A stretch of 63,326 nucleotides of DNA, from NCBI RefSeq assembly GCF_001715975.1, contig NZ_MARB01000026.1, positions 1-63,326 of the forward strand, in the 5' to 3' direction. Numbering within the stretch: the first letter of the stretch is position 1; every line of letters begins with the position of its first letter. This DNA is from Candidatus Thiodiazotropha endolucinida. GTDB taxonomy: Bacteria > Pseudomonadota > Gammaproteobacteria > Chromatiales > Chromatiaceae. Below, piece by piece: positions 1-63,326 of the stretch. A model generated the notes under the pieces. That model did not search any database, was not told the origin of the DNA, and saw only the letters and a list, made by a program, of their open reading frames with translations. Position numbers and translations under genes: made by a program.

Positions 1-162
1 CGAGGTGTAGTTATGCTACATGAGCGAATGATAACGCCGCTGGGCGCAAAAACAGCCCCAGCCCTTCGGGTTGCGCCCCGAAGGAAGTGCCCTTGGGGTG
101 CGCCTTGATTGGCGCTTTTTCAGGCACAACAGGGCGTATTGGATTAGTGTTAACAGGCCCTA
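1..162 (-). mobile_element. MITE-like repeat, copy A (cut by window edge)
   Basis: Reverse-oriented copy of the interspersed 231-bp element described at copy B. The 162 bases in the window are, as read by eye, the exact reverse complement of the first 162 bases of copy B (9734-9895). It ends in the terminal repeat with CCCTA at 158-162. The remaining part, about 69 bases, would lie left of the window. It contains no reading frame of note. Its end lies 160 bp upstream of greB. Confidence 0.85.
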
Positions 163-2041: not shown

Positions 2042-2064
2042 GGATTAGTGTTAACAGGGCCTAA
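2042..2064 (-). repeat. Solitary MITE terminal repeat upstream of tpm
   Basis: GGATTAGTGTTAACAGGGCC followed by TAAG matches the outer end of the 231-bp element's terminal repeat, with one G inserted or exchanged near the tip. No second end or internal hairpin is recognisable between srkA and tpm, so it appears to be a solo end or relic. It lies only 13 bp upstream of the chosen tpm start, inside the probable 5' leader. A GTG inside it would extend tpm by 10 codons; that longer frame is probably an accident of the repeat. Confidence 0.6.
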
Positions 2065-9702: not shown

Positions 9703-9720
9703 TTAGGGCCTGTTATCACC
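9703..9720 (+). repeat. Solitary MITE terminal-repeat fragment
   Basis: TTAGGGCCTGTTATCACC copies the outer end of the terminal repeat with one change (ATC for AAC). It lies 14 bp left of complete copy B and in the same orientation, and about 15 bp upstream of the GNAT start. It may be the remnant of an earlier insertion at the same site. Confidence 0.6.
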
Positions 9721-9733
9721 CGTATCAATGTAT

Positions 9734-9964
9734 TAGGGCCTGTTAACACTAATCCAATACGCCCTGTTGTGCCTGAAAAAGCGCCAATCAAGGCGCACCC
9801 CAAGGGCACTTCCTTCGGGGCGCAACCCGAAGGGCTGGGGCTGTTTTTGCGCCCAGCGGCGTTATCATTCGCTCATGTAGCATAACTACACCTCGCTCAT
9901 TCTGCCTTGCTGGGCACGAAAACAGCCCCAGCAGGGCGTATTGGATTAGTGTTAACAGGCCCTA
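9734..9964 (+). mobile_element. MITE-like repeat, copy B (complete, 231 bp)
   Basis: Reference copy. Perfect 34-bp terminal inverted repeats lie at 9733-9766 and 9932-9965; the outer sequence is TAGGGCCTGTTAACACTAAT. A TA flanks each side, consistent with a TA target duplication as made by IS630/Tc1-type transposases. Inside are hairpins at 9781-9796 (GCGCC/GGCGC), 9812-9833 (CCTTCGGG/CCCGAAGG) and a 21-bp arm pair 9837-9857 / 9909-9929 with two mismatches. No open frame is credible. It fills the gap between the GNAT gene and the stop of the DUF1318 gene. Non-autonomous: no transposase lies in the window. Confidence 0.85.
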
Positions 9965-15614: not shown

Positions 15615-16052
15615 TCATTGATTCTTGCCGGAAGAGATAATCCTGAAGGGCGTATCCTGCACCTCTTCATCCCGGTTGCGCATGAAATCCGCCGTTCTGA
15701 AGAATGACTGGTTAAGCTCTTCCTGCAGCTTTGCATCCAGATCCATCACCGACAGAGCCTTACGCATACAGTAGATCCACTGATCTCGTTCCTCGATACC
15801 GATACTGAAAGGAAGATGCCTGGCACGCAGCCTGGGATGGCCATACTTCTGTACATAGAGATCGGGGCCACCCAGCCAGCCGGATAGAAATAGGAACAGC
15901 TTTTCACGTGATATTTTAAGGCTCTTGGCATGTAGATCACGTATCTTTTTTGCCTCCTGTTGCTGGTCCATCAGATTATAAAACCTGTCCACCAGTTCCC
16001 TGACTGCCGCCTCGCCGCCGATTCTCTCATAGGGCGTTTGATCTTGACTCAT
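15615..16052 (-). CDS. Truncated haemoglobin, group II
   Basis: Small 2/2 globin (145 aa) that binds O2 or NO. The opening TPYERIGGEAAVRELVDRFYNLM, the sequence SREKLFLFLSGWLGGPDLYVQKYGHPRLRARHLPF with the proximal His in the HPRLRARH region, and the Trp in RDQWIYCMRKAL are group-II (GlbO) features. The ATG at 16052 with AAGG 9 nt upstream is preferred to the GTG two codons earlier. Group-II globins are usually linked to oxidative or nitrosative protection. Confidence 0.92.
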   Translation of the reverse strand: MSQDQTPYERIGGEAAVRELVDRFYNLMDQQQEAKKIRDLHAKSLKISREKLFLFLSGWLGGPDLYVQKYGHPRLRARHLPFSIGIEERDQWIYCMRKALSVMDLDAKLQEELNQSFFRTADFMRNRDEEVQDTPFRIISSGKNQ

Positions 16053-19592: not shown

Positions 19593-19826
19593 TAGGGCCC
19601 GCTAACACTAACCCAATGGGCTCTGTTGCTCTTGAAAATGCGCCAATCAAGGCGTACCCCAAGGGTACTTCCTTCGGGGCGCACCCCAAGGGTACTTCCT
19701 TCGGGGCGCAATCTGTAGGGCTGAGGCTATTTTTCCGCCCAGCGGCGATATCATTCGCTCATGCTGCCTTGCTGGACAGAAAAATAGCCCCAGCAGAGCC
19801 CATTGGGTTAGTGTTAGCAGACCCTA
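19593..19826 (+). mobile_element. MITE-like repeat, copy C (complete, 234 bp, diverged)
   Basis: Terminal repeats open with TAGGGCCCGCTAACACTAAC on the left and close with GTTAGTGTTAGCAGACCCTA on the right. They differ from copy B, but most of the changes are shared by both ends. Relative to B it has a 27-bp tandem duplication (19652-19678 and 19679-19705, one mismatch) and lacks 24 bp between two CGCTCAT direct repeats, which accounts exactly for 234 versus 231 bp. It lies in the divergent region between the peroxiredoxin and NDUFA9-like genes, 72 bp before the latter's start. Confidence 0.82.
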
Positions 19827-22097: not shown

Positions 22098-22328
22098 TAG
22101 GGCCTGTTAACACTATTCCAATTGGCCCTGTTGTGCCTGAAAAAGCGCCAATCAAGGCGCACCCCAAGGGCACTTCCTTCGGGGCGCAACCCGAAGGGCT
22201 GGGGCTATTTTTCCGCCCAGCGGCGTTATCATTCGCTCATGTAGCATAACTACACCTCGCTCATTCTGCCTTGCTGGGCAAAAAAATAGTCCCAGCAGGG
22301 CCGATTGGATTAGTGTTAACAGGCCCTA
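22098..22328 (+). mobile_element. MITE-like repeat, copy D (complete, 231 bp)
   Basis: Same length as copy B. The terminal repeats are TAGGGCCTGTTAACACTATT on the left and its near-complement on the right with CCCTA at the end; one mismatch and one G-T pair separate the two ends over about 34 bp. The internal 21-bp arms carry CTATTTTT where B has CTGTTTTT, with the matching change in the right arm. The flanks extend the symmetry (CC before, GG after). It stands immediately upstream of nhaA. Confidence 0.85.
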
Positions 22329-34703: not shown

Positions 34704-37700
34704 TTAAAGAATCGTCACATTCACCTGGTCTTCTATCAACAGGGTCACGCTATCATCCGTATTGAGATATTCGATAAAGGTATGACCATTTTGGGTGACT
34801 GAATTACCCGATTCATGCCAATCGTTCGTCAGTTCCACACTGTCAGAGGTGTCACCCAGAACCTCCAGCAAATTATCATTGTCAGTCATAGTCAACACAT
34901 CAGTGACACTCAGATTCAAGATGTCGTGATTGCCTACTGTGAGATCTATCCTCTCAATGTTTCTGATATTGGATATGCTACTGAAGTCAAGGTCATCGTT
35001 ATCAGGTGCAATGAGTGTGTCGAAACCGGCATTCCCGGTGATTAGACTATCAGCAGAATCGAAGATCAGCGTATCATTTCCGCCGCCGCCGCGTAATTGG
35101 TCACTCCCTGACCCACCATCAAGAACATCATCGCCGCCACGACCTCGCAAGGTATCATTCCCTTCATATCCAGATAGATACTCATCTGCAGCAGTACCTC
35201 TCAAGATATCAGCAAGAGCCGATCCATCGATACTCTGGTAACCGCCGATTGTTATGGTCAGTGTCGCACTGGAAATATCACCATCCTCATCCGTAATCGA
35301 ATAGCTGAAAGTATCAGTAATCGTATCCCCGGGGGCCAAATCATCTTTGGTATCACGGTTCAATTGGAAGGAGTAGGCGCCGCTGGAATCAACTGTCAGA
35401 TTGCCATATGGGCTTGTTGTATCACCCCAGATCACATTGGATACGGATCCATCACCACCTGTTATGTTTGACACGCTCCCCGTAACCACGGGAAGAGTAT
35501 CAGTGGAAACGATACTCCCCATGATCTCAAACGGATTCACCGCCTGTTCGTCTGTTCGAATGGTGGATACGATCTGACCATTGGCATCCATGAATCCATC
35601 CACTCTGACCTCATACTCCTGACCGCCAATGGAAAACGTCACCGCTTGAGCGGGCAACGTTATGATATCTCTTGGATCAGCACCGTTATTTGGTGTCTCA
35701 TTATGATCCATCAAGACATCGAACTGTACTGTGGTTGGGATATCATTGACCACCACATCCATTTCAATGGTAAGAGTGACCTGATCCAGTGTGGATGAGT
35801 TGCTATATATAGGCCAGTTATTGTGCGAAAAATCCGCTAGCTTGAACGATTCCCCAATCAGCACACTTTCGCCACCCCCAGTAAATACTGGGTTGTCTAC
35901 CAAACTATATCCTGATTGAGATCCACCACTTGGGACACTGCCCCATAACAGATTATCAATAAATCCGTCTGTATCCGTATCTTGCTGGGTCACATCTCCC
36001 GTGCCATTGATGAACACAGGATTGGTCCAACCAGCGGCGAGATTTTGTATTCCCAGTGAGTCAACTCCGATATATATATTGGCGGAAATATTACCTGCTT
36101 TTGGAGCATCATCTTCAAGCTGAATAGTAAGCGGTGCAGACACACTATCCGTACCATCATCTACAGTAACATCCACATCGAAAGAAATAACATCTTCCTG
36201 GCCGACAACCGGGTGATCCACCCTATCCGATAATGTAACAGTATAATTTCCAGCCTGATCTATGGATATGCGTAGAACTTCTGAACCTCCCGCAGAACCT
36301 ATGAGCAAATCAGTCCCATCACCCGTCCAGGTTATGGGCTGACCATAAGATGTCATAGCGACTCCAGGCTCTGTCAATGACACGGTCAAGGTATCTCCTT
36401 CAGGATCACTTACAGACATACTACCGCTGTCAGTTACACTATCAGTTGTATCAGTTGGTGTGCCTGTGTTATCAGGCATTCCGTTAACCAAACCCTCTTC
36501 AGAAACCGCAGCTGTTGTAGGAGTTATTTCAGGTAGATCATTAACCTCTTTAACAGTGACCGTCACCGTGGCAGTATCAGTGCCACCGTTACCATCGTCG
36601 ATGGTATAGGTGAAGGTGTCGGTGCCGTTGAAGTCTGGGTCCGGCGTGTATACTGGGTTACCTGATACCGGGTCGATTGCAACCGAGCCATTGGCACCTT
36701 GAGTGACCGCTGTCACGGTCAGCGTATCGCCATCCGGATCGCTGTCGTTCGGTAAAACATCGACAGTGACAGAAACATCCTCATCCGTATCAATAGCGTC
36801 ATCCACAGCCACAGGGGCATCATTGACTGCACCCACGGTCACAGTGACGGTCGCGGTATCGGTGCCACCATTGCCATCGTCGATGGTGTAGGTGAAGGTA
36901 TCGGTCCCATTGAAGTCTGGGTCAGGTGTGTAAACAGGGTTACCTGAAACAGGATCGATGGCAACCGAGCCATTGGTACCTTGAGTGACCGCAGTCACGG
37001 TCAGTGTATCGCCATCTGGATCACTGTCGTTCGGCAACACGTCAACGGTGACCGGGGTATCTTCGTTAGTGCCTACCGCATCATCAGTGGCGATCGGTGC
37101 ATCATTCACCGCACCCACAGTGACTGTCACGGTCGCGGTATCGGTACCGCCATTACCGTCATCGATGGTATAGGTGAAGGTGTCGGTACCATTGAAATCT
37201 GCATCCGGCGTATAGATCGGATTACCACTGACTGGATCAATCATCACCATGCCATTGGTTCCCTGAGTCACAGCGGTGACTGTCAGCACATCACCGTCTG
37301 GATCACTGTCGTTCGGCAACACATCCACTGTAACAGGCGTATCTTCGTTAGTGCCGACTGCATCGTCGGTGGCAATCGGTGCATCGTTCACCGCACCCAC
37401 AGTGACCGTCACCGTGGCGGTATCGGTCCCACCATTCCCGTCGTCGATGGTATAGGTGAAGGTATCGGTGCCATTGAAATCCGCATTCGGAGTATAGACT
37501 GGGTTGCCTGAAACAGGATCGATGGATACTGATCCATTTGTACCCTGAGTCACAGCAGTGATCGTCAGAGCATCACCATCCGGGTCGCTGTCATTGGGCA
37601 GTACATTGACTGTGACTGGAACATCCTCATCCGTTCCGATGCTGTCATCCACAGCCACAGGGGCGTCATTCACCGCACCCACAGTGACCGTCACGGTCGC

Positions 37701-40700
37701 AGTATCGGTACCGCCATTGCCATCATCGATGGTATAGGTGAAGGTATCCGTGCCATTAAAGTCTGGGTCAGGTGTGTAAACAGGATTACCTGATACCGGA
37801 TCGATAGCAACCGACCCATTGGTACCTTGAGTGACCGCAGTCACGGTCAGTGTATCGCCATCTGGATCACTGTCGTTCGGCAACACGTCAACGGTGACCG
37901 GGGTATCTTCGTTAGTGCCTACCGCATCATCAGTGGCGATCGGTGCATCATTCACCGCACCCACAGTGACTGTCACGGTCGCGGTATCCGTCCCACCATT
38001 GCCGCCGTCGATGGTGTAGGTGAAGGTATCCGTGCCATTGAAATCCGCATTCGGTGTATAGATTGGGTTGCCTGAAACAGGATCGATGGATACCGATCCG
38101 TTTGTACCCTGAGTCACAGCGGTGACGGTCAGGGTGTCACCGTCTGGATCACTGTCATTGGGCAGTACGTCAACGGTGACTGGCGTATCTTCGTTGGTAC
38201 CAACCGTGTCGACGGTAGCAATCGGTGCGTCATTCACGGCACCTACGGTCACAGTAACGGTCGCGGTATCGGTGCCACCATTGCCATCGTCGATGGTATA
38301 GGTGAAGGTATCGGTGCCATTGAAATCCGCATTTGGCGTATAGACCGGATTGCCTGAAACAGGATCGATAGCAACCGACCCATTGGTACCTTGAGTGACC
38401 GCTGTCACGGTCAGAGCATCACCATCCGGATCACTGTCATTGGGGAGTACGTCAACGGTGACCGGTGTATCTTCGTTCGTACCCACCGCATCATCAGTGG
38501 CAATCGGTGCGTCATTCACCGCACCCACGGTCACAGTAACGGTCGCGGTATCGGTCCCACCATTGCCGTCGTCGATGGTATAGGTGAAGGTATCGGTGCC
38601 ATTGAAATCCGCATTCGGGGTATAGACTGGGTTGCCTGAAACAGGATCGATGGATACCGATCCGTTTGTACCCTGAGTCACAGCGGTGACCGTCAGCAAA
38701 TCGCCATCCGGATCGCTGTCGTTCGGCAACACATCCACCGTTACAGGCGTGTCTTCGTTCGTACCCACCGCATCATCAGTGGCGATCGGTGCATCATTCA
38801 CCGCACCCACAGTGACCGTCACCGTGGCTGTATCGGTCCCACCATTGCCATCGTCGATGGTATAGGTGAAGGTGTCGGTACCATTGAAATCTGCATCCGG
38901 TGTATAGATCGGATTGCCACTGACTGGGTCAATCGTCACAGTACCATTAGTTCCCTGGGTCACGGCTGTGACGGTCAGGGTGTCACCGTCCGGATCACTG
39001 TCATTGGGGAGTACGTCAACGGTGACCGGTGTATCTTCGTTCGTACCAACCGTATCATCGGTAGCAACCGGTGCATCATTGACTGCACCCACGGTCACAG
39101 TAACGGTCGCGGTATCGGTGCCACCATTGCCATCGTCGATGGTGTAGGTGAAGGTATCGGTCCCATTAAAGTCTGGGTCAGGTGTGTAAACCGGATTACC
39201 TGATACCGGATCGATAGCAACCGACCCATTGGTACCTTGGGTCACAGCAGTCACGGTCAGTGTATCACCATCCGGATCACTGTCATTGGGGAGTACGTCA
39301 ACGGTGACCGGGGTATCTTCGTTCGTACCAACCGTGTCGTCGGTGGCGATCGGTACATCATTCACCGCACCTACTGTTACGGTCACCGTGGCTGTATCAG
39401 TCCCGCCGTTGCCATCATCGATGGTGTAGGTAAAGGTGTCCGTGCCGATATAATTCGTGTTTGGTGTATAAACCGGGTTGCCACTGATTGGATCTATGGT
39501 AACTGAGCCATTTGAGCCCTGGGTTATGGCGATAACTGTCAGCGCGTCACCGTCTGGATCACTGTCATTTGGCAGTACATTGACTGTGACTGGAAGATCC
39601 TCATCTGTTCCGATGCTGTCATCAACTGCCACTGGTGCATCATTGACTGCACCCACGGTCACAGTGACGGTCGCGGTATCCGTACCACCATTGCCATCAT
39701 CGATGGTGTAGGTAAAGGTGTCCGTGCCGATGAAATTCGTGTTTGGTGTATAAACCGGGTTGCCACTGATTGGATCTATGGTAACCGAACCATTTGAGCC
39801 CTGGGTTATGGCGATAACTGTCAGCGCGTCACCATCTGGATCACTGTCATTTGGCAGTACATTGACAGTGACTGGAACATCCTCATCTGTTCCAATGCTG
39901 TCATCCACAGCCACAGGGGCATCATTGACTGCACCCACGGTCACAGTGACGGTCGCGGTATCCGTCCCACCATTACCGTCGTCGATGGTGTAGGTGAAGG
40001 TATCCGTACCGTTGAAGTCCGCATTCGGGGTATAGACCGGATTGCCACTGACCGGATCAATGGCAACACTACCGTTGGTACCCTGAGTCACGGTGGTGAC
40101 AGTGAGGGTATCACCGTCTGGGTCACTGTCATTAGGCAGTACGTCAACGGTGACCGGGGTATCCTCGTTAGTCCCCACGGTGTCGTCGATTGCAACAGGC
40201 GCATCGTTTACACCACCTACAGTCACAGTCACCGTTGCTGTATCCGTACCACCATTGCCATCTGTAATTGTATAGGTAAAAGTATCGATTCCTGTAAAAG
40301 TCGGTGCTGGAGTATAAATAGGATTACCGGTAACCGGATCAATAGTGACTGATCCGTTAGTCCCTTGGGTGACCGAGGTGATGCTCAGCACATCTCCTTC
40401 CGGATCTGAATCATTTGTGAGTACATCAATAGTGATTGGAGTATTCTCATTTGTACTCGCGCTGTCGCCAATGGCAACAGGCCCATCATTTACACCTGCC
40501 ACCGCAATCATTACTGTGGCTGTATCAAACCCCCCATTTCCGTCACTGACTGTATATGTAAAAGAGTCTGTCCCAGTAAAACCGGCATTGGGTGTATATT
40601 GATATGAGCCATTAGAATTTTGGACCAGCGTACCATTGGATGGCTGCGTGTTGCCTGTAACTAAGAGCCGATCTCCCTCTGGATCTGAGTCATTTCCGAG

Positions 40701-42530
40701 CACAAAAATACCTACCGGGGTATTCTCCTGAGTTGCGACTATGTCATTTTCTGCATCGGGTGGGTCATTAACAGGAATAACGTGGATTATGGAAACTGCG
40801 GTATCGCTATTGCCATCACCGTCATTAACTGTAATGTTGATAATACGATCAACTGTTTGTGGATAATCACTGGTATTAACAAAATGAATTGCTTGAAGGG
40901 CTTGTTCGTAATCCGCAAGACTTGCTGTGCCCGTTAATGTTACAGAGATATCATCAACTGTTGCTGTAATACCAATCGGCAGACCGCGCACGATCAACTG
41001 ATCAAATGACTGATGATTGGTTAATATAATGGTTGCACTCTCGATATTTGTATCATCGACATCAGTAATAACGACATCTTCGTCTACAATCGATACTGCC
41101 GATCCATCCTCAATAAAGGTTGTTTCATAACCGTTTCCGGGCGCACTGCTGTCATCACTATCCAAATCGATTACCGCAACATCATTAACACCTACGACTT
41201 CTATGCGGGCAACTGCAATGTCGCTATCGAGTTCCCCATCATTCACCGTAACTTGTATGAGACGAGTCTCAGGAGATGGATTTTGGCTTGTATTCTCAAA
41301 AGTAATAGCTTGTATGGCGCTCTGATAGTCTGCCAAAGAAGCTTCACCACTGATTGTGATGGTATGGCCATCGACCACTGCTGACAGGCCTGCCGGCATA
41401 TTGCCAAATGCCAGTACATCGCCCGATTGAGGGTTAGTCAATGTTACTGTTGCACTCTGTAATGTCTCATCATCAACATCCGATACTGCAGCATCAAAAT
41501 CGGCAATTGAGATTGCAGACTCACCTTCGGTGAAGATTGTCAGGTAATCATAACCACTGTCAGTCGAATCATTACTGTCGAGGTCTATAACTGGGGGATC
41601 ATTGACCGCTTGAACTGTGATAGTTGTGACAGCCGTATTACTGTCAAACTCACCATCATTAACTGTCACTTCTATTATACGAGGTGTTTCATCAGGATTA
41701 TCTGTAGTATTGATAAACCCGATATCGCGTATCGCCTGGGCATACACCTGCGGTGTAGCAGTGCCACTCAACAAAACAGTGATGACACCGGGCACACTAC
41801 TGTCCACCTCAACATTCAAACCGGTAATCGCTGATACATCCAACTGATCGCCAAACTGAGCATTCGTCAGTACGATTCTTGCACTTTCCAGTACCGTGCC
41901 ATCCGGATTGGAGACCTGGATATCCGCATCGGCGATGGGCAAAGGATCGCCATTCTCCGTAAAGTGGCTGAGATAGCCGACACCCACCTGTGAATTGTCG
42001 TCACCATCCAGATCAATGGTGGGCAGAAGGTCAATAATCGTTGACGACTCATCGGATTGGGCAAAACTGATTGTCAATCCTGCAGTTTCAAATCCGCTCT
42101 CGGGTGTTGTCTGAGCGCCTGTCCGTTCAACAGTGACAAAACTTGAACCTTCGTTGCCTGTTGGAGAATCACCAGGACCGGCAGCCGGCGCCTCTTGAAT
42201 GGCTGTTGGGTCTTCACCCAACAAGATTGCCTGTTGAATTGCATCGATTGACGCTGCATATTCAGATCCATCCTCGGGAGTGGTTGTCTGGTAGACGTCG
42301 GCATCGAGCAGGCCCTGTGAATTACGGCCCAAGGTCAGGTTGCCACCGTCATTGAATACAATCTCGATGCTCCCGAGCTCGCCTGTCGCGATCTGTTCAT
42401 CGGCAAAGACAAGGTCGCCAACCTGGAGAATTCTGGTAACGCCATCACTGCCGGTTGCCTTCACTTCACCAATTACCTGGCGAACGAAACCAATAACCTG
42501 TCCGGTTGTCTGGGTTGCTTGAATAGCCAT
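34704..42530 (-). CDS. lapA: Giant RTX adhesin, LapA-like, 2608 aa
   Basis: Type-I-secreted biofilm adhesin. Residues 1 to about 100 are the retention module that plugs the outer-membrane channel (GQVIGFVRQVIGEVKATG, DGGNLTLGRNSQGLLDADVY). A LapG-type cleavage site follows in EAPAAGPGD (AAG at 116-118). Next come three cadherin-like modules of about 140 residues, one Big/cadherin-like module of 93, then 14 tandem 94-residue modules with LPNDSDPDGD, a C-terminal region with larger beta domains, RTX nonapeptides (GNDTLRGRGGDDVLDGG) and a terminal secretion signal. Regular Asp-rich linkers imply Ca2+ binding. No vWA domain is seen. Preceded by 175 bp with a palindrome that may control it. Confidence 0.93.
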   Translation of the reverse strand: MAIQATQTTGQVIGFVRQVIGEVKATGSDGVTRILQVGDLVFADEQIATGELGSIEIVFNDGGNLTLGRNSQGLLDADVYQTTTPEDGSEYAASIDAIQQAILLGEDPTAIQEAPAAGPGDSPTGNEGSSFVTVERTGAQTTPESGFETAGLTISFAQSDESSTIIDLLPTIDLDGDDNSQVGVGYLSHFTENGDPLPIADADIQVSNPDGTVLESARIVLTNAQFGDQLDVSAITGLNVEVDSSVPGVITVLLSGTATPQVYAQAIRDIGFINTTDNPDETPRIIEVTVNDGEFDSNTAVTTITVQAVNDPPVIDLDSNDSTDSGYDYLTIFTEGESAISIADFDAAVSDVDDETLQSATVTLTNPQSGDVLAFGNMPAGLSAVVDGHTITISGEASLADYQSAIQAITFENTSQNPSPETRLIQVTVNDGELDSDIAVARIEVVGVNDVAVIDLDSDDSSAPGNGYETTFIEDGSAVSIVDEDVVITDVDDTNIESATIILTNHQSFDQLIVRGLPIGITATVDDISVTLTGTASLADYEQALQAIHFVNTSDYPQTVDRIINITVNDGDGNSDTAVSIIHVIPVNDPPDAENDIVATQENTPVGIFVLGNDSDPEGDRLLVTGNTQPSNGTLVQNSNGSYQYTPNAGFTGTDSFTYTVSDGNGGFDTATVMIAVAGVNDGPVAIGDSASTNENTPITIDVLTNDSDPEGDVLSITSVTQGTNGSVTIDPVTGNPIYTPAPTFTGIDTFTYTITDGNGGTDTATVTVTVGGVNDAPVAIDDTVGTNEDTPVTVDVLPNDSDPDGDTLTVTTVTQGTNGSVAIDPVSGNPVYTPNADFNGTDTFTYTIDDGNGGTDTATVTVTVGAVNDAPVAVDDSIGTDEDVPVTVNVLPNDSDPDGDALTVIAITQGSNGSVTIDPISGNPVYTPNTNFIGTDTFTYTIDDGNGGTDTATVTVTVGAVNDAPVAVDDSIGTDEDLPVTVNVLPNDSDPDGDALTVIAITQGSNGSVTIDPISGNPVYTPNTNYIGTDTFTYTIDDGNGGTDTATVTVTVGAVNDVPIATDDTVGTNEDTPVTVDVLPNDSDPDGDTLTVTAVTQGTNGSVAIDPVSGNPVYTPDPDFNGTDTFTYTIDDGNGGTDTATVTVTVGAVNDAPVATDDTVGTNEDTPVTVDVLPNDSDPDGDTLTVTAVTQGTNGTVTIDPVSGNPIYTPDADFNGTDTFTYTIDDGNGGTDTATVTVTVGAVNDAPIATDDAVGTNEDTPVTVDVLPNDSDPDGDLLTVTAVTQGTNGSVSIDPVSGNPVYTPNADFNGTDTFTYTIDDGNGGTDTATVTVTVGAVNDAPIATDDAVGTNEDTPVTVDVLPNDSDPDGDALTVTAVTQGTNGSVAIDPVSGNPVYTPNADFNGTDTFTYTIDDGNGGTDTATVTVTVGAVNDAPIATVDTVGTNEDTPVTVDVLPNDSDPDGDTLTVTAVTQGTNGSVSIDPVSGNPIYTPNADFNGTDTFTYTIDGGNGGTDTATVTVTVGAVNDAPIATDDAVGTNEDTPVTVDVLPNDSDPDGDTLTVTAVTQGTNGSVAIDPVSGNPVYTPDPDFNGTDTFTYTIDDGNGGTDTATVTVTVGAVNDAPVAVDDSIGTDEDVPVTVNVLPNDSDPDGDALTITAVTQGTNGSVSIDPVSGNPVYTPNADFNGTDTFTYTIDDGNGGTDTATVTVTVGAVNDAPIATDDAVGTNEDTPVTVDVLPNDSDPDGDVLTVTAVTQGTNGMVMIDPVSGNPIYTPDADFNGTDTFTYTIDDGNGGTDTATVTVTVGAVNDAPIATDDAVGTNEDTPVTVDVLPNDSDPDGDTLTVTAVTQGTNGSVAIDPVSGNPVYTPDPDFNGTDTFTYTIDDGNGGTDTATVTVTVGAVNDAPVAVDDAIDTDEDVSVTVDVLPNDSDPDGDTLTVTAVTQGANGSVAIDPVSGNPVYTPDPDFNGTDTFTYTIDDGNGGTDTATVTVTVKEVNDLPEITPTTAAVSEEGLVNGMPDNTGTPTDTTDSVTDSGSMSVSDPEGDTLTVSLTEPGVAMTSYGQPITWTGDGTDLLIGSAGGSEVLRISIDQAGNYTVTLSDRVDHPVVGQEDVISFDVDVTVDDGTDSVSAPLTIQLEDDAPKAGNISANIYIGVDSLGIQNLAAGWTNPVFINGTGDVTQQDTDTDGFIDNLLWGSVPSGGSQSGYSLVDNPVFTGGGESVLIGESFKLADFSHNNWPIYSNSSTLDQVTLTIEMDVVVNDIPTTVQFDVLMDHNETPNNGADPRDIITLPAQAVTFSIGGQEYEVRVDGFMDANGQIVSTIRTDEQAVNPFEIMGSIVSTDTLPVVTGSVSNITGGDGSVSNVIWGDTTSPYGNLTVDSSGAYSFQLNRDTKDDLAPGDTITDTFSYSITDEDGDISSATLTITIGGYQSIDGSALADILRGTAADEYLSGYEGNDTLRGRGGDDVLDGGSGSDQLRGGGGNDTLIFDSADSLITGNAGFDTLIAPDNDDLDFSSISNIRNIERIDLTVGNHDILNLSVTDVLTMTDNDNLLEVLGDTSDSVELTNDWHESGNSVTQNGHTFIEYLNTDDSVTLLIEDQVNVTIL
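36543..40490 (-). repeat. Tandem array of 14 repeats, 282 bp each, inside lapA
   Basis: The boundaries (codons for Val-Asn-Asp) recur every 282 bp from 36543 to 40490, giving 3948 bp, exactly 14 units. Thirteen are nearly identical at protein level and the first is more diverged. Variants are shared in a mosaic way (units 3, 4 and 11 carry GTDEDVPVTVNV or its close form; units 5, 10, 13 and 14 carry YTPDPDFNG; units 6 and 12 YTPDADFNG), pointing to recombination between units. Antisense frames seen here are by-products of the repeat. Confidence 0.92.
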
Positions 42531-59604: not shown

Positions 59605-59824
59605 GTTGCCTGTCTCCTGAGATGCAATGAGTCACCCTGAATCAGAAAGACCCTGAGAAAACCTCTAATGCCTTATGATTTCGATTGCTCAACCGGGAAA
59701 GAATTCATCACCGATCAAGATCCACTGACTTGTCTACAGAAGAAATACAGCGATTCTGTAGCCTACTAGCACTGCCAAACCCTAGAGAAGCCCATTTAAA
59801 TTCATGTCTTTCAATAACTTATTT

Positions 59825-59996
59825 ACGGCCTGCCAGCACAATACCAATCAACTCCGTGACGACAGCAGGAGTGAGGCTGTTTTTCACCCGACAGCGTTCT
59901 CATTCGCTCATTTAGAATAACCACAGTTGAATCACTCTTCCTTGCCTGACGGAAAAAACACAACACTACCGACTGTATTTGTGTCAACCGACCCCA
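59825..59996 (+). mobile_element. Decayed MITE-like element
   Basis: The region can be aligned by eye with copy B. A left end GGCCTGCCAGCACAATACCA, the segment GAGGCTGTTTTTCACCCGACAGCG, the conserved TCTCATTCGCTCATTTAG, then CTTCCTTGCCTGACGG and a right end TTTGTGTCAACCGACCCCA all appear in order. The central CCTTCGGG hairpin part is missing and many bases differ, so this is an old, internally deleted copy. The remainder of the 59605-60233 gap shows no gene; the last 100 bp should hold the infA promoter. Confidence 0.6.
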
Positions 59997-63229: not shown

Positions 63230-63297
63230 TAGGGCCTGTTAACACTAATCCAATGCACCCTGTTGTGCCTGAAAAAGCGCCAATCAAGACGCGAGGA
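63230..63297 (+). mobile_element. MITE-like repeat, fragment E at the right window edge
   Basis: Begins TAGGGCCTGTTAACACTAAT, has its own variant of the inner terminal repeat (CCAATGCACCCTG), continues TTGTGCCTGAAAAAGCGCCA and AATCAAGACGCG, then departs from the family at about 63298. Either the element is truncated there or an insertion or deletion follows; the window ends before a right terminal repeat could be seen. Confidence 0.7.
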
Positions 63298-63326
63298 GAG
63301 AGGTTTGGTTATTCCAAATGAACGAC

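Follow-up and report, generated by a model that had tools for sequence, protein, structure and literature searches.

The repeats scattered over this contig of Candidatus Thiodiazotropha endolucinida are copies of a MITE family that inserts at TA and duplicates it. The evidence makes it probable that the family is a non-autonomous, IS5/IS427-type MITE of Candidatus Thiodiazotropha, and that the single 33-bp units and 22-bp palindromes that accompany it are scars of lagging-strand replication slippage at the hairpin of longer elements.

Copies in the window contig

The window, that is, the whole stretch of 63,326 nucleotides that was analysed, is the entire contig C26 of a 4.49-Mb genome in 55 contigs (G000). 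Copy B (9734–9964, forward strand) measures 231 bp counting both flanking TA, copy D (22098–22328, forward strand) has the same length and 95% identity to copy B, and copy C (19593–19826, forward strand) is 234 bp long with more diverged ends; the coordinates and lengths originally given for these three copies are correct. Copies A (1–162, reverse strand, outer end at 162) and E (63230–63326, forward strand) had been described as cut by the edge, and so they are, because the assembly broke inside repeats: both ends of the contig lie within copies. The remaining arm of copy A (1–163) is 100% complementary to 9733–9895. Since contigs C6, C9 and C14 also start in, or at most 15 bases from, a family copy, it is clear that the repeat breaks the G000 assembly.

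In addition to these copies, the contig carries several members that are shared with a relative, G005. The decayed copy reported at 59825 is real and spans 59824–59957 (forward strand), with its first end at the same place in G005. An old single end, TAGGGCCTGTTATCACC (9704–9733, forward strand), adjoins copy B upstream and is also common to G005, and a single end motif, TAGGCCCTGTTAACACT (2047–2063, reverse strand), continues as AATCCGATCGGCGGTA, a 33-bp-like unit, at a site where G005 likewise has a single end. Conversely, positions 15917–15922 are an empty site at which G005 has a 269-bp copy (1520832–1521100).

The terminal inverted repeats of copy B are indeed inverted repeats, but they are identical over 33 bases rather than the 34 first proposed. 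As single-stranded DNA, copy B has a predicted folding energy of -86.1 kcal/mol, whereas 200 shuffled sequences average -36.4 (z -13.4). The description as MITE-like and gene-free is borne out by the inverted ends, the recurring length classes described below and the lack of transposase coding, the element being only 231 bp long and encoding nothing. The contig as a whole gave no match to DDE_3, DDE_Tnp_1, Y1 or IS427-type transposases, in agreement with the earlier statement that it has no transposase, and no Rfam family or tRNA was found in the window. Elsewhere on the contig, a 2608-aa ORF (34704–42530, reverse strand) has cadherin-like/bacterial Ig repeats and RTX calcium-binding repeats; it contains a 282-nt unit 14 times, and the G005 alignment suggests a different repeat number there.

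Abundance and distribution

The high copy number anticipated from the window was found in the whole-genome search, in which the end motif TAGGGCCTGTTANCAC occurs 308 times in the 4.49 Mb of G000 (at most 2 mismatches), against 9 occurrences of the reversed-pattern control. Copies in G000 are mainly 231 (230–231), 269 (268–269) or 296 bp long, with rarer lengths such as 204 bp, as scored in 40 of 213 candidates. With at most 1 mismatch, the end motif is present in all 22 genomes of the genus, at 12 to 226 per genome, and a longer motif in a wider search is found in 33 of 210 genomes, which represent 10 of 61 genera, all of them in a single family. A scan of named genomes with the 33-bp unit returned 28 stretches from Candidatus Thiodiazotropha and gammaproteobacterial symbionts of lucinid clams, and also one Sedimenticola and one Chromatiales MAG. 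A limited literature search found no publication combining Thiodiazotropha and MITE and no description of the family, which is consistent with its having been called undescribed.

Insertion at TA and recent turnover

The window and two 200-kb stretches of G000 were compared with G005, which is assembled in one contig and shows 92–96% identity over long alignments. All 12 paired copies of 230–296 bp found in either genome are absent from the other, and the members that are shared are older, shorter or decayed ones, such as a 97-bp member, several single ends and the relic near 59824; the family is thus not a conserved syntenic feature, which had been named as an observation that would refute the original reading. 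Between the flanks at the 12 empty sites there is exactly one TA in 6 cases, and in the other 6 there is TT, T, T, 0 or -8 bases, or a diverged site (copy B). For example, copy D reads CCCC-TA-GGGCC...GGCCC-TA-GGATG when filled, and the empty G005 site reads CCCCTAAGATG. In the window comparison, TA duplication is seen for copies B, C and D and for one G005 copy, as had been predicted from the ends alone. Hence, the 308 end motifs, the absence of all 12 copies from the other genome and the TA empty sites identify this as a MITE family with TA duplication, one that inserts at TA and has turned over recently.

A thirteenth case shows that the family inserts into its own ends. Here a 269-bp G005 copy lies within the end TA of the 97-bp member (L037 4738–4834 versus G005:C1:2904874–2905237), whereas the G000 member has no insert; in G004 the gap is equally large. 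G004 and G005 show 97–99% identity over nine paired loci, and between these two genomes the element differs in length in place at 2 sites, 172 versus 296 bp and 296 versus 269 bp, the former pair needing more than one change.

A candidate partner transposase

The candidate partner comes from another genus of the same family. Genome G105 carries an autonomous-looking 812-bp element (L235:1501–2312, counting both TA) with the ends TAGGGCCTGTTAACACTAATCA and TAGGGCCTGTTAACACTAAATG and the flanks CTA/TAG. At its two ends, 21 and 19 terminal bases are identical to those of the 231-, 269- and 296-bp forms, whereas its interior shares with the MITE interior only matches of 9 bases or less, which is chance level. 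The element has two overlapping frames, which match DUF4096 (E 3e-21) and DDE_Tnp_1 (E 3e-13), both above the Pfam cut-off, and which overlap as AAAAAAAA at an A8 run. Against NF033580 (IS5 transposase) the two ORFs score 104.2 and 99.3, each under the cut-off of 110 because each is half of the protein.

Among the IS427 rows considered in a Paracoccus table, lengths are 832–865 bp; most members of the group have a 2-bp duplication, and a frameshift motif accompanies their two overlapping ORFs (PMC3281130). The 812-bp element fits the IS427 group of the IS5 family, as set out there, in its length and in its two overlapping ORFs with DUF4096 and DDE_Tnp_1 (PMC3281130), and it has 21 and 19 terminal bases in common with the MITE; unlike the group, the MITE has no coding content, and inside it no match to the element exceeds 9 bases. 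The 2-bp TA duplication in this comparison comes from the MITE empty sites, and the 812-bp element itself is flanked by CTA/TAG. The shared ends, together with TA, support IS5/IS427 as the probable class of partner for the family.

When the joined protein was searched against 33 genomes, 8 matched: G105 with open frames, G200 and G011 with broken ones, G113, G109 and G057 with fragments, and G018 and G032 with distant matches (34–43% identity). G011 and G018 belong to the genus of the window, and their partner copies carry related ends. In contrast, G000 had no match to this type of transposase, nor had 20 of the 22 genus genomes, including G004, G005 and G008, and the profile and joined-protein searches of G000 did not find the enzyme that moved its young copies. 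Since G000 is without the partner enzyme, we infer that the MITE was probably mobilised in trans by an IS427-type transposase. A DDE_Tnp_1 relic of IS5 type on contig C12 of G000 was rejected as the partner, as the end motif is absent there at up to 4 mismatches save for one unrelated-looking occurrence.

Several further observations concern IS5-type genes in these genomes. The C12 locus (L031) holds a degraded IS5-type DDE_Tnp_1 gene with apparent parts of other transposases, near a contig end. G018 has a second, distant IS5-type element (L272 1461–2299 and L279 1096–1933) with stop-free frames and the ends TAGGGCCTGTTAACAATAAAG / TAGGGGGCGTTAACAATC. G113 has 14 partner-transposase matches; most are short pieces of the C-terminal part, and several lie at the edges of contigs, which suggests a multi-copy element in its genus.

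Single units and replication strand

The 33-bp unit, TAGGGCCTGTTAACACTMATCCRATNGGCCCTA, consists of the first 32 bases of the GGCCCTG kind of MITE end plus the closing A of the other side. Such units are biased towards one replication strand in the genomes tallied. The direction of the rule, by which units lie on the lagging-strand side, was derived from the mean skew of loci in G001, so that G005, G008 and G002 are its tests. The 40 loci fetched from G001 contain 47 unpaired ends, 42 of which follow the rule (p 2e-8); this tally is used in place of an alternative pattern that undercounts 33-bp units in the same loci (21 of 22 follow the rule). In G005, the origin was placed at the skew flip near 2.955 Mb, beside dnaA, dnaN and gyrB, with the terminus assumed to lie opposite. 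The pattern (at most 3 mismatches) has 104 matches there, and the 100 that were listed comprise 25 unpaired A-ending units, 54 paired ends and 21 other single ends; among these listed matches, 20 of the 25 units are on the lagging-strand side (p 0.004). All eight 33-bp units of G008, six of which are identical, follow the rule by local GC skew. On contig C7 of G002, scanned directly in 11 pieces placed by coordinate, 6 of 7 unpaired ends do so; the skew was positive in all 11 pieces whereas negative skew had been predicted from the matches listed, which were incomplete and covered one strand of C7, so this prediction failed as stated. Two pieces of G002 contig C10, chosen around listed matches, gave 2 of 2 and were excluded from the count.

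Gene direction does not explain the bias: unpaired ends in G001 are co-oriented with the neighbouring genes in 22 of 44 and 30 of 47 cases, and of these 47 ends, 46 are located outside ORFs of at least 100 aa. The bias is not seen among the listed G005 single ends that end otherwise (13 of 21) or for five end-flank joints in G000 (2 of 5). No bias is shown for the orientation of the MITE interior either, with 19 of 29 loci following the rule (p 0.14), one of the 30 loci examined having been dropped for near-zero skew; a pooled tally of 49 of 55 is given no weight here.

Joints and sites of the units

Site comparisons show how these remnants sit in the genome. Of eight 33-bp units in G000 with both flanks found, 5 are also present in G004 or G005, and the site opposite the other 3 is empty with TA; one further unit has no counterpart, and one G005 unit likewise faces a TA empty site. 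Among the 22-bp palindromes, one faces exactly TA and another AA. At none of the sites compared does a full MITE stand opposite a 33-bp unit of the other genome.

Single ends of G000 that lack the closing part were compared in the same way. Fourteen query sites, 13 aligned together and the 97-bp one compared separately, yielded five such ends; L033 and L051:1810, which have internal length differences, were omitted. Judged against the relative's site, all five are a shortened terminal repeat fused to the flank, and microhomology is present at 4 of the 5 joints. In order, the joints share 3, 0, 5, 4 and 5 identical bases, AACA being a near match at the second, and 36, 13, 58, 17 and 0 flank bases are lost; measured against G005, the fifth has 2 shared bases and 3 flank bases gone. 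These five fusions are therefore most simply read as deletions that would start within one repeat and remove what follows of the element. A match of at least 6 bases is found in 14 of 25 units versus 6 of 54 paired ends (p 5e-5) among the matches listed in G005, a test that is only supporting because the search pattern favours such ends.

A slippage model for the units

In the model that we favour, an IS427-type transposase would recognise ~20 bases at the start of the ends (TAGGGCCTGTTAACACTAATC) and insert the element at TA, doubling it. Once inserted, the element forms a long inverted repeat, and exposure as a single strand at the replication fork could let it fold into a hairpin. After copying a portion of one terminal repeat, the nascent lagging strand would slip, its 3' end moving forward to a short match in the flank or at the hairpin's far base. 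The product could be a 33-bp unit, in which the shared GGCCCT of the far terminus links one repeat to the closing A; a 22-bp palindrome through the shared TGTTAACA; or a single end fused to the flank. With the hairpin on the lagging-strand template, the part kept would be what the nascent lagging strand copies first, so that the scars would point one way relative to replication. Lagging-strand slippage is thus a putative maker of the 33-bp units and 22-bp palindromes, and its proposed direction was drawn after the strand bias was known.

Several observations weigh against the model. The main one is that a full MITE and a 33-bp unit were not seen at the same site in any comparison. The 3 of 8 G000 units and the one G005 unit at TA empty sites also fit direct insertion, the six identical units of G008 and the other end classes in which no bias is seen count against it, and G000, G005 and G008 are without the partner transposase although their copies are young. 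Moreover, as evidence for in-place shortening, the 172/296 pair involves multiple steps, and the 27-bp difference of the other pair may have arisen in either direction.

Alternative explanations

Some of the same observations would fit units that are themselves mobile. In this alternative, the 33-bp (and 22-bp) units insert directly at TA with a preference for one fork strand, and the 231–296 bp MITEs are a separate, longer form. The unit and palindrome sites that face exactly TA or AA, the six identical G008 units and the strand bias all speak for it. However, 33 bp would leave scant room for two transposase-bound ends of ~20 bases, cut-and-paste with inverted ends offers no obvious cause for a strand bias, single ends fused to flank resemble deletion joints, and element length has changed in place; we regard direct insertion as unlikely. 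A related proposal, that the 33-bp unit is mobile, TA-inserting and polar with respect to the replication strand through a single-strand or copy mechanism not yet described, seems to us slightly less likely still. One may also argue that the strand-biased units are a selected functional site, such as a chromosome segregation, termination or uptake signal, from which the MITE ends derive. The strong replichore bias in G001, G005 and G008, the location of 46 of 47 unpaired ends in G001 outside ORFs of 100 aa or more and the sharing of 5 of 8 G000 units with G004 or G005 would suit such a site, but end motifs vary from 12 to 226 per genus genome, 3 of 8 unit sites differ among close relatives and orientation is not tied to gene direction, and this explanation is improbable.

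Two other alternatives concern the enzyme. A REP/REPIN system run by a RAYT (Y1) transposase would account for short palindromic repeats between genes, and single-strand transposition would fit the strand bias; Y1_Tnp matches do occur in 21 of the 22 genus genomes. Nevertheless, the only Y1 match in G000 is a 69-position fragment with a stop, the end motif (at most 3 mismatches) is found in none of 20 Y1 loci fetched from among the matches listed, and the family duplicates TA, which together make such a system very improbable. The TA duplication was the reason why the original prediction invoked an IS630/Tc1-mariner mechanism and an IS630 transposase flanked by ends of this family. Neither proposal held: DDE_3 is absent from G000 and present in only 3 of 22 genus genomes, the four DDE_3 loci fetched have no pair of matching TAGGGCCTGTTAACAC ends (in one of them, a lone end-like motif lies ~1.2 kb away from the DDE_3 match), and the ends are borne by an element of IS5-family, IS427 type instead. 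An IS630/Tc1-mariner origin is thus the least credible of these explanations.

Relation to known systems

Correia elements, ERIC/RU-1 and RUP are TA-flanked bacterial MITEs with ends unlike those of this family. They share with it their short length, lack of genes, inverted ends and high copy number between genes, whereas the family described here has in addition an IS5-type element that shares its ends and strand-biased, one-ended remnants. In REPINs, or REP with RAYT, solo units and inverted unit pairs coexist, and solo units occur alongside inverted pairs in this family too; in contrast to REPINs, it has TA duplication and an IS5-type partner, and no link to a RAYT was found. Hairpin-promoted replication slippage between direct repeats was reportedly described by Trinh and Sinden. 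An in vitro assay with 27-bp repeats at the base of the hairpin has established slippage of this kind between short repeats (PMC4134008). The slippage proposed for this family would resemble that system in its hairpin template, short repeats and deletion, and would differ from what is described there in its genome-wide pattern, replication polarity and shorter repeats (PMC4134008).

Implications

As a MITE family, this one is of an ordinary kind, but it is abundant and young, so that its copies can readily serve to mark strains and also break the assemblies of these symbiont genomes. Furthermore, the likely driver of this TA-flanked bacterial MITE is an IS5-type element, whereas TA by itself had suggested IS630/Tc1. 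The one-ended remnants lie outside the original finding and are its most interesting consequence, as they suggest that DNA copying itself trims the element down. To our knowledge, most work on hairpin loss at replication forks has used plasmids or in vitro systems. If the units are slippage scars, they would document naturally, across the genome, on which strand and in which direction hairpins are lost at the replication fork.
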